In this document: positions 59,080 through 61,986 of the stretch, in pieces
How the letters are laid out: each line of letters begins with the position of its first letter
Numbering within the stretch: the stretch's first letter is position 1
NCBI GenBank assembly: GCA_029259355.1
Contig: JAPDIZ010000002.1
Span: 186,001-250,000, forward strand
Direction: 5' to 3'
DNA from: Candidatus Bathyarchaeota archaeon
Lineage (GTDB): Archaea > Thermoproteota > Bathyarchaeia > JAPDIZ01
Length of the DNA: 64,000 bases
The notes under the pieces: model-generated
Database searches by the model: none
What the model was told of the DNA's origin: nothing
What the model saw: only the letters and a program-made list of their open reading frames with translations
Program-made: the position numbers and the translations under genes

Positions 59080-59451
59080 ATGAGTATGGAGGAAAAGCTC
59101 AAGCTCCTTATGGAGAACTTAATGAACGAGGGAAGGGGGACTGTCAAGTCTGCTCTCCTAATAACGAACGATGGACTCCCCATAACTTATTTGAGCTCAA
59201 CAAGTGAGTTCGACGCTGAGCAGCTTGCTGCCCGCATACATTTGCTGGCTATGGACGCAAACGCGCTTTCTTCGGCTCTGGGGGGCCAAGCCGCAAGGAT
59301 AGATGTTAAGAAAGGCGATGGAAGTAATCTCGTAATTGCTGGCTTCTCAAAGGGATACTTAGCCGTTGAGACGTACCCCAACCCCAATATTGGGCTGATT
59401 TACCTCTTGATCTCAAAATACGCAGATGCGTTTGACTCAGCTCTTACCTAG
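59080..59451 (+). CDS. Roadblock/LC7 domain protein
   Basis: A 123-residue roadblock/LC7 (MglB-like) protein: helix EKLKLLMENLMNE, strands VKSALLITNDGLPITYLSS, helix EQLAARIHLLAMDANALSSALGG, strands RIDVKKGDGSNLVIAGFSKGYLAVETYP and the last helix LIYLLISKYADAF. Homologues regulate Ras-like GTPases in polarity and signalling. ATG at 59080, with an in-frame ATG two codons on. It heads a three- or four-gene plus-strand operon with two palindromes at its promoter. Confidence 0.88.
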   Translation: MSMEEKLKLLMENLMNEGRGTVKSALLITNDGLPITYLSSTSEFDAEQLAARIHLLAMDANALSSALGGQAARIDVKKGDGSNLVIAGFSKGYLAVETYPNPNIGLIYLLISKYADAFDSALT

Positions 59452-59473
59452 GGTTTGTTGGGTGAACTCGGTG

Positions 59474-60232
59474 ATGCTAACACCTGCTGGGAGGCTTAAA
59501 AAGCTTGAAGCGGTACATAGAGATTCTCCGTCTAAACTAGCTAGTGTTGTCATAGATCAAGTTTCGTCTTCCAAGCTTACTGGATATCTTCGCGTAGTAG
59601 GCAGGATGAATGGCGAGAGGCTAAGTGCAATTGTTTTGCTCAGAAGAGGTAATCCAGTTGCAACAGAAGTTAGAATTGGCGAAGAGATCTCTAAGGGAAT
59701 GAGGGGACTAGATGTCCTAAGGAGCTTTACCATAACCTCTGGAGTAGTTGAAGTGTACGAGCTAACTGATGAAGAGGTTGAACGAGCGCTTAGACTTAAT
59801 CCCGAAAATCTCATGGAGGCTGCCGAAACGCCTTCGCAAGAGCTTGTCCCCCTTACAGAGCAAGCGGTTGAGGAAATCCCCTCAGTTGAGGGAGAGGTCA
59901 GCGCCAAACCATCTCCGCCTGTGTTAGAGGAGGCGGAAACACGCTCCTCAGTAGAGGTCGCCGAAGCATCTTTTCCATCCGAAACTGCTATAGATTTGCC
60001 CAGTGACCTCCCCCTCGTCGAAGAAGTTGCTCAAACAAGCGAGTGGCCTGAATCTTTAGAAGAGCTTAAGCTAGAGGAGGCTCCTCGTGAAGAAGATAAG
60101 GCCTTGGACCTACCCCCAGAAGAGATAATCGAAGACGAAGAAGCGGCAATAGTAGCTCAGTTGAAGAAGATCACCTTACCCAAAAAAGAGGACGTAAGGA
60201 AAATACTGGAGAGAGAGGGGTTCCAGACGTAG
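59474..60232 (+). CDS. DUF2226-like protein with long acidic linker
   Basis: About 252 aa. The N-terminal domain (about 1-110: LTGYLRVVGRMNGERLSAIVLLRRGNPVATEVRIG, then SFTITSGVVEVYELTDEEVERAL) resembles archaeal DUF2226/DUF4388-type proteins that share operons with roadblock genes. It is followed by a disordered Glu/Pro/Ser-rich stretch of about 110 residues and a C-terminal helix (AQLKKITLPKKEDVRKILERE). The linker suggests a tether between partners. ATG at 59474 has GGTGA 8 nt upstream; the previous gene ends 22 bp before. Confidence 0.7.
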   Translation: MLTPAGRLKKLEAVHRDSPSKLASVVIDQVSSSKLTGYLRVVGRMNGERLSAIVLLRRGNPVATEVRIGEEISKGMRGLDVLRSFTITSGVVEVYELTDEEVERALRLNPENLMEAAETPSQELVPLTEQAVEEIPSVEGEVSAKPSPPVLEEAETRSSVEVAEASFPSETAIDLPSDLPLVEEVAQTSEWPESLEELKLEEAPREEDKALDLPPEEIIEDEEAAIVAQLKKITLPKKEDVRKILEREGFQT

Positions 60233-60247
60233 GCGGTGGTTAAATAG

Positions 60248-60766
60248 GTGAGCAAAGTACTGGGGATAAGAAAGCAACGAAGGAAGCAGAGCTTCACAAA
60301 CCTCCCCAAGCAAGTCGTCGGCGACGGCTTTAACATCGACCACTTTTTATCAAACATAGGCATAACGCCTCTTAGAACTCCATCGGCAGAGGAAGATCAT
60401 AGCAAAGTCGTATTTTTGGGAGAAAATGTTGAGGAACTTTCGCGAATACTCGAAGCTGAAGAATACCAGCTTCCACAAGAGAACGCTGAGATACTTCGTG
60501 AAGTCTTGCTTGAAGGAGGGCTAAGGCCTTTTTTCGACCCTCTTAAGGGGGCCTCCTATCCAACGCTTGAAGATAAGCTGAAAATGTCGTCTAGAGAAAT
60601 CGCTAAGCTGTTGGAGGAGCTTGAGAAAGAGGTTTTTTGGAGAAAACCCTTGCTTACAAGCTCCCCAGGTGTTCAAGGTGTGGAGCTGTTGCTCTCCTCA
60701 CGCTCACTGGATGCCCGAAGTGTGGTAACACTAACATCACTCGTGAGTCGCTGGTTGAGCACGTGA
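60248..60766 (+). CDS. N-terminal part of a TackOD1-like protein (frame-split)
   Basis: Frame of 172 aa. Residues 1-129 look genuine: basic start, mixed middle, and a helical end REIAKLLEELEKEVF that resembles the wing/helix leading into TackOD1 zinc fingers. After the run of six T at 60633-60638 the frame turns into an unlikely 43-residue tail (WRKPLLTSSPGVQG...), while the -1 frame continues with LEKTLAYKLPRCSRCG, just what the family expects. So the natural product is probably the fusion with the next entry, made by frameshift, RNA slippage or after correcting a missing T. GTG start 8 nt after GGTGG. Confidence 0.6.
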   Translation: MSKVLGIRKQRRKQSFTNLPKQVVGDGFNIDHFLSNIGITPLRTPSAEEDHSKVVFLGENVEELSRILEAEEYQLPQENAEILREVLLEGGLRPFFDPLKGASYPTLEDKLKMSSREIAKLLEELEKEVFWRKPLLTSSPGVQGVELLLSSRSLDARSVVTLTSLVSRWLST

Positions 60767-61575
60767 GGTGCGGGTATTTCGGCTCAGAGGAGTCGTTTAC
60801 AGGTGGCACGTGTCCACAATGCGGTAGAAAGATAAGAAATAAGTCTAAAGACCTTCGCACGGTTGGAAGCTGGTTTCACTGCCCTAAATGCAATTCGAGG
60901 TTTAGCGACTACAACATATTATATCTTTGTCAAGCTTGTGACAGCCGGTTCAGGCCAAGCGAGGTCGAGCTAACAGAGGTCTACACCTATACTATAAACT
61001 CAGCGAAAACTGAGGAGCTTAGGAAACAACTCACCGTACTACCTACCCTTAGAAAGTTCTTAGAGAGCCATGGGTTCGTGGTCGAATCTCCCAAAGCTCT
61101 TAAAGGCATTTCAGGAAATGTCCATAGATTCGACATAGTTGCTTGGAGGAATGGCGAAAAGTGGGTGTTCGATGTAGTAGTCATCAAAAAAGTCGCTCTC
61201 GAGAACAAACTCGTTCCTATCTCGGTAAAAGTAATCGACGTAAAAGCCTCAAAAGCATTCGTGATAGCAATTCCAAGCACAAGTGAGCAAGTAAAGAGAA
61301 CGGCTAACCTTCTCAACATCGAGGTCATAGACCTAGAAGACGCTACGTCTATAGAGTCTAAGCTATCCAAGTACTTAGCTGAGCTTTCCTCAATTTCCTC
61401 CGAGACCAAGTATAAGGGCGGCAGTCGCCAAGCCTACGAAAGTGGTGACAAAGCCGTAAATGAACACGTTCTCTCCAGAAAGCCTGCCGAGGAGAGCTCC
61501 CAGCAAAAACAGCAAAACGAGTGTGAGCAAAATAGAGAGCGCATAGGCCTGCTCTATGAGCATAGCGCCTCTTAA
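60637..61575 (+). CDS. TackOD1-like zinc-finger protein with nuclease-fold domain
   Basis: Frame of 312 aa. Residues 8-110 hold four CxxC sets: CSRCG...CPKCG, CGYF...CPQCGRKI, FHCPKCNSRF and LCQACDSRF, with LVEHVRCGYFG and RTVGSWFHCPKC between, the layout of the TACK output domain TackOD1. Residues 130-245 look like a restriction-endonuclease-fold domain (GISGNVHRFDIVAWRNGEKWVFDVVV, KAFVIAIPSTSEQVKRTANLLNIEVIDLED). The last 62 residues are polar, low complexity and antisense to the VIT gene. TTG at 60637 has AAAGAGG 4 nt upstream and could be a real start if the gene is split rather than frameshifted. Confidence 0.72.
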   Translation: MEKTLAYKLPRCSRCGAVALLTLTGCPKCGNTNITRESLVEHVRCGYFGSEESFTGGTCPQCGRKIRNKSKDLRTVGSWFHCPKCNSRFSDYNILYLCQACDSRFRPSEVELTEVYTYTINSAKTEELRKQLTVLPTLRKFLESHGFVVESPKALKGISGNVHRFDIVAWRNGEKWVFDVVVIKKVALENKLVPISVKVIDVKASKAFVIAIPSTSEQVKRTANLLNIEVIDLEDATSIESKLSKYLAELSSISSETKYKGGSRQAYESGDKAVNEHVLSRKPAEESSQQKQQNECEQNRERIGLLYEHSAS

Positions 61576-61986
61576 GCACAGAATGAAAGGCAATATGGCG
61601 ACAAAGGCAGGTATTGCTGGTGCAATCCCGTCTATCACGGCAAGTGCAACAGGCGCGAAGCGTGTGGCGTCTCCTATGACTGAGTTGCCGAGGTCAGCTA
61701 GCATCGCTTTCTCCAAGTCCTTAAGCCTCTTAATTCGCTCCGCTCTTTCCGAGATGTAGACCCCGGCGAAGCCAGAGATTCCCATAGCCAGCATTCCGCC
61801 GAGGCCAGCACTAACAATCATCGAAGGGTCTCTTGCACCCGCGACAAAAGCCCCCAGCACCACACCCAAGATAACCATGGCTCCGTCAAACGCGTTGATA
61901 ACGAAGTATCTTCTCCCTATCTCGCCCATCTCAGAGACGGAGGAATAGAGGCGAAACTTCTCAACTACTTCCCTAAGCCTCCGCAA
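61390..61986 (-). CDS. VIT family iron/manganese transporter-like protein
   Basis: Membrane protein of 198 aa related to vacuolar iron transporters (VIT1/CCC1). The first helix motif YFVINAFDGAMVILGVVLGAFVAGARDP and GLGGMLAMGISGFAGVYISERAER match the family; a soluble stretch RIKRLKDLEKAMLADL and three more helices follow. Cytosolic metal export or sequestration is inferred. Its C-terminal 62 codons overlap the TackOD1-like gene on the other strand; the VIT reading, a genuine transmembrane helix, is the constrained one. It follows the DUF211 gene by 11 bp. Confidence 0.88.
   Translation of the reverse strand: MRRLREVVEKFRLYSSVSEMGEIGRRYFVINAFDGAMVILGVVLGAFVAGARDPSMIVSAGLGGMLAMGISGFAGVYISERAERIKRLKDLEKAMLADLGNSVIGDATRFAPVALAVIDGIAPAIPAFVAILPFILCLRGAMLIEQAYALSILLTLVLLFLLGALLGRLSGENVFIYGFVTTFVGLATAALILGLGGN

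Follow-up and report, generated by a model that had tools for sequence, protein, structure and literature searches.

The DNA considered here belongs to a 1.74-Mb assembly of a Bathyarchaeota archaeon (9 contigs, 95% complete). The window, that is, the whole stretch of 64,000 nucleotides that was analysed, is C1:186001-250000, and the genomes used for comparison are those of 60 relatives, all of the same class (Bathyarchaeia-like). The RadA protein of this genome finds its nearest matches, at 76%, mostly in Candidatus Bathyarchaeota records. Two overlapping open reading frames follow a gene with a match to DUF2226, which probably forms one transcription unit with the first of them, ORF A. The features of the locus are as follows.

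59426..60232, + strand: upstream gene with a DUF2226 match, ending 15 nt before ORF A
60248..60766, + strand: ORF A, GTG start, 172 aa; profile match of 16.1 bits when taken alone, over profile positions 15-74
60616..60664, + strand: strong hairpin enclosing the break, with arms GGAGCTTG (60616-60623) and CAAGCTCC (60657-60664) and inner GGTTTT/AAAACC
60625..60632, + strand: best-fit interval of the frame change according to join scores, GAAAGAGG, 5' of the T run
60628..60632, + strand: AGAGG, Shine-Dalgarno-like by its sequence, 4 nt before TTG 60637
60633..60638, + strand: T6 run, of a length that fits the family in frame B (Gly-Phe-Leu)
60637..61575, + strand: ORF B, TTG start, 312 aa, encoding zinc ribbons and a C-terminal restriction-endonuclease-like domain
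61387..61575, + strand: 3' part of ORF B that overruns the usual family end, by about 63 codons, antisense to the gene at 61390-61986(-)

The two ORFs share 130 nt and stand in frames 0 and -1. ORF A runs through ELEKEVF and then departs from the family, while the -1 frame goes on as ORF B and reads LEKTLAYKLPRCSRCG, just as the preliminary description of this DNA had it. The residues of ORF A up to about position 128 make up the N-terminal winged-helix-like part of a TackOD1 protein, and the final 43 or so are an out-of-frame reading. The T6 run is contained in GGTTTTTTGG at 60631-60640.

ORF B alone matches the Pfam TackOD1 family (PF18551) with 73.1 bits, starting at profile position 68, and the read-through protein reaches 94.8 bits with a continuous match over positions 37-188, across the junction; both values are above the curated cut-off of 32 bits. 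Against a purpose-built profile of 39 intact homologues, ORF A scores 16.1, ORF B 230.6 and the joined protein 267.1 bits, and the read-through segment LLEELEKE-GFLEKTLAYKLPRC aligns with the family without gaps. The family motifs, five CXXC and one HXXC, are present in ORF B as CSRC, CPKC, HVRC, CPQC, CPKC and CQAC, and these zinc-ribbon cysteines are among the invariant columns of an alignment that has ORF B as a row. Homologues occur in 43 of the 61 class members and, with few exceptions, are single ORFs of 320-350 aa that start 70-90 residues upstream of the zinc ribbons. Nearly all of the approximately 160 TackOD1 places in the class, among the matches listed, are single ORFs, and of the PF18551 matches listed for a broader set of 201 genomes, almost all have an open frame of about 330 aa or longer. 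The survey of family members turned up none that is naturally split. Comparison with relatives had been proposed as a check on the frameshift, and the frame break stands: the single uninterrupted reading frame of a TackOD1 gene is missing at this locus, and the frame is disrupted relative to intact homologues, as in a pseudogene. The first claim, that a -1 frame change breaks a single TackOD1-like gene, is borne out by the continuous match of the joined protein, and ORF A and ORF B are, to judge by their sequences, the halves of one gene and one protein. They are better annotated as one disrupted TackOD1 gene than as two hypothetical proteins.

Three further TackOD1 genes of this genome have open frames. 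A scan of genome contigs with ORF B turned up no relative, and hence no close one to show the ancestral state. Conservation of the gene neighbourhood was found in none of the relatives examined, so that no strict orthologue could be named.

The original product is predicted to be a zinc-binding, DNA-binding-like protein in which zinc ribbons follow a winged-helix-like N-terminus and precede a C-terminal domain of the restriction-endonuclease-like kind. In an AlphaFold2 model (pLDDT 90.4) of L008, the intact homologue closest to this gene, the N-terminal part is helical, a long strand runs into the zinc ribbons, and an alpha/beta domain forms the C-terminus; the break maps within the winged-helix part, to the turn that joins helix 59-68 to strand 72-82. 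Foldseek matches of this model include AF1548, the repair endonuclease NucS/EndoMS, and the nucleases Can2 and Card1, all of which we take to be restriction-endonuclease-like folds.

The break had been placed exactly at the T6 run. We scored every possible join of the two frames against the 39-homologue profile, and the best joins lie a few bases further upstream, in the 60625-60632 interval. Re-reading one base at 60631 gives the top score (267.1 bits), with 60625 (266.6 bits) and 60628 (266.3 bits) next; joins within the T run give 263.3 bits. The T-run joins score lower because of a single residue, which is Gly in the family and Val in frame A. In the junction column, 53 of 61 homologues have Gly and none of the 61 has Val; here frame B has GGT (60631-60633), coding for Gly, and frame A has GTT, coding for Val. 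After GGT, frame B continues with TTT TTG, that is, Phe-Leu, both normal in the family. The T6 run already has the length expected from the family, the frame change lies before it, and the run itself is probably not the lesion. It is likely to be a red herring: comparing the frames with the family places the lesion further upstream and weakens the case for slippage. We also asked whether the T run might undergo phase variation, an idea rejected because the run is short and already agrees with the family. The frame change, the single-gene ancestry and the position relative to the T run come directly out of these comparisons.

We assign a probability of roughly 0.6 to recent inactivation of one TackOD1 gene by a one-base frame break. 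Loss of frame by one base at about 60625-60632, just before T6, would have inactivated the gene; translation from GTG 60248 would then yield the N-terminal part and, up to 60766, an out-of-frame tail, without the zinc-ribbon half as part of this protein. The gene is apparently dispensable here, given the three intact paralogues and the broken family copies found elsewhere. Decay is favoured by two other homologues in the class (G001 and G028) that are broken independently and at different places. It is opposed by the zinc-binding cysteines, all of them intact, and by some 380 codons that remain open, so that the lesion, if real, must be recent. The frame change is probably present in living cells, and probably recent.

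The two independently broken homologues differ in detail. The one at G001:C13:20000-30000 (L006, L085), from another family, has its own -1 break about seven codons upstream of the equivalent position, and the homologue in G007, a congener, is intact. The one at G028:C39:42800-46300 (L083) is broken at least once in its zinc ribbons, with a probable second break downstream, and its counterpart in the congener G129 is intact. Two further candidates were dropped: the G102 homologue looks truncated where its contig ends, and that of G163 has a masked stretch upstream.

The 3' end of ORF B is unusual as well. Homologues end at a median of 3 residues past the last profile position, with one exception at 133 and the rest at no more than 21. 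The overlap of ORF B with the convergent gene 61390-61986(-) is 186 nt, the largest among 140 convergent pairs, for which the median is 4 and the next largest values are 160 and 97. Judged by this overlap statistic and the usual family length, the overrun fits a second lesion, either a lost stop or a second frame change; natural overlap is an admissible alternative. The gene carries both the overrun and the convergent overlap, and yet has kept all of its cysteines.

The alternative that survives best is an error of assembly or sequencing, in which the gene is intact in the cell and one base is missing from the contig. We regard it as unlikely. The remainder of the TackOD1 protein looks well kept, a lone one-base break interrupts another gene of this contig that is otherwise conserved (C1:435771), a G6 run is the place where an NTPase_I-T gene is split, and the exceptionally strong hairpin at the TackOD1 break is a plausible spot for an error. 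This reading is weakened by the position of the best break, which is outside a homopolymer, and by the frequency of such breaks, about one per 300 kb of conserved coding sequence, which is not above that in two other genomes. The hairpin (fold of 60610-60670) has z = -3.97 relative to shuffles, and none of 2143 same-GC stretches of 61 nt in the window folds as well, in a comparison for which the stretch was picked after the fold had been seen. It may mark a spot that is prone to mutation or to error.

Frame breaks were surveyed in contig C1 and parts of C2 and C5. An initial survey of 440 kb found almost no other breaks, and the picture changed when it was extended. A Viterbi scan based on codon usage covered 792 kb of this genome and 400 kb each of G038 and G131; strong frame switches inside open overlaps numbered 10 here and 0 in each of the other two, a count in which not every candidate was checked by homology, which makes the split between error and decay a rough one. 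Planted one-base losses were recovered by the scan in 19%, 12% and 25% of trials. Searches by tblastn with G038 and G131 proteins covered 300 kb of conserved coding sequence in this genome and returned three candidates: one clear one-base break (C1:435771, in a gene that we take to be DUF373-like), an insertion in the uS11 gene, and one apparent pair of adjacent genes. The corresponding numbers for the two relatives were 3 in 419 kb and 1 in 198 kb. Ten codon-usage switches, as against one clear break in 300 kb of conserved coding sequence, suggest that the breaks concentrate in poorly conserved genes; such clustering is what decay would give. Some of the broken genes, among them an acyl-CoA dehydrogenase gene on C2, have more than one lesion.

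Other broken genes were encountered along the way. The NTPase_I-T gene (PF01931; G000:C1:432362-432978, - strand) is split at the G6 run into two contiguous halves. A second copy of a GPN-loop GTPase gene (G000:C1:342526-343280, - strand) is frame-broken, and the copy at C1:441360-442076 is intact. A gene presumably for an acyl-CoA dehydrogenase, named from its sequence (G000:C2:46974-47547, + strand), switches frame at GGGGTTTTT and contains a stop codon in frame, as befits a multi-lesion pseudogene.

Two separate genes had also been suggested; ORF A would then encode a small protein, and TTG 60637 would be an independent start for ORF B. The ribosome site noted near this codon is indeed there, AGAGG at a 4-nt spacing, and every zinc-ribbon cysteine is kept in ORF B. 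On the other side, the surveyed family members include no naturally split homologue, and the tail of ORF A is 43 residues of unrelated reading. The cut would separate the third helix from the long strand that follows it, and since, in the model of the closest intact homologue, this lies inside the winged-helix part, it makes a poor domain border. On balance, separate translation is improbable.

Recoding, by -1 ribosomal slippage at TTT/TGG or by transcriptional slippage on U6, would yield some full-length protein. UUU in the P site could re-pair after slipping back by one base, GGAGGAG is found upstream of the site, and -1 frameshifting has been proven in one archaeal gene, fucA1 (PMC8211752). 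Both forms of slippage had been listed as options; they are disfavoured because the product would carry Val at the Gly position, where no homologue out of 61 has it, and because neither a recoding signal nor conservation of the site is seen. There is no X-XXY-YYZ slippery heptamer in the 0 frame, where the codons are GAG GTT TTT TGG (G GTT TTT TGG at the site). No stimulatory structure was found 5-9 nt downstream, the folds of 60640-60720 (z = -0.54) and 60645-60760 (z = 0.02) being ordinary. The shift is not shared by relatives: no homologue carries the site, and homologues read through in one frame. The hairpin surrounds the site of the frame change rather than following it, an arrangement unlike known -1 signals such as that of fucA1. 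We consider recoding very improbable, and its most specific form, -1 slippage of a single tRNA on TTT while a slow TGG codon occupies the A site, aided by the enclosing hairpin and GGAGGAG, more improbable still; if true, it would be the second cellular archaeal case besides fucA1.

A short intervening sequence, either a bulge-helix-bulge intron or a bypass, can practically be discounted: it is favoured by the strong hairpin at the site and by the putative intron of 22 nt that this genome has in its uS11 gene, but no excision of 2-119 bases restores the family alignment, any such skip being at least 6 bits worse than the one-base re-read and skips of about 20 nt being 18 bits worse.

The uS11 case may merit more attention than the TackOD1 break. 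The sole uS11 gene of the assembly (PF00411; G000:C1:560961-561339, - strand; L269/L270) contains a 22-nt interruption, TCGCCTCCTAGAGGCGGGGTAG, in a conserved loop. Removal of the 22 nt gives VRAPGGHGPKTPGPGA, identical to the sequence in G007, and none of the 55 relatives with a match has a stop or a split in this gene. A bulge-helix-bulge-like fold is predicted here (3-nt bulge AAT, 4-bp helix, internal loop), with its bulges at the boundaries of the 22 nt, which may represent a very short archaeal mRNA intron. At first the break in uS11 was taken to prove an assembly error of one base; we dropped this, as relatives reveal a 22-nt insertion and not a one-base loss. The putative intron warns against taking every broken gene of this genome for an error.

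Among the explanations listed in the preliminary description, then, true inactivation and assembly error remain, slippage is disfavoured by the Gly/Val column, and two genes are unlikely from the place of the cut and from the homologues. The most likely ranking puts inactivation first and assembly error next, and nothing points to special decoding at T6.

Three known systems invite comparison. The TackOD1 family (PF18551, arCOG06883; Galperin et al. 2018, PMC5847659), the function of which is described as obscure, is characterised by conserved cysteines in five CXXC motifs and one HXXC motif (PMC5847659); our locus resembles it in profile match, motifs and the wHTH-TackOD1 type of architecture, and differs in the frame break between the wHTH part and the zinc ribbons, in lacking a receiver domain, and in the approximately 63 extra 3' codons. 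The fucA1 gene of Sulfolobus solfataricus likewise consists of overlapping ORFs in the 0 and -1 frames that encode halves of one protein, and is expressed by a programmed -1 frameshift with A-AAA-AAT, a flanking stem-loop and rare codons (PMC8211752); the TackOD1 locus, in contrast, has no slippery heptamer, and its frame change fits best upstream of the T run. The closest likeness is to ordinary disrupted archaeal genes, i.e., single-indel pseudogenes, with which it shares the loss of frame by one base in otherwise open frames, the existence of intact relatives and membership in a dispensable multi-copy family, and from which no difference was seen.
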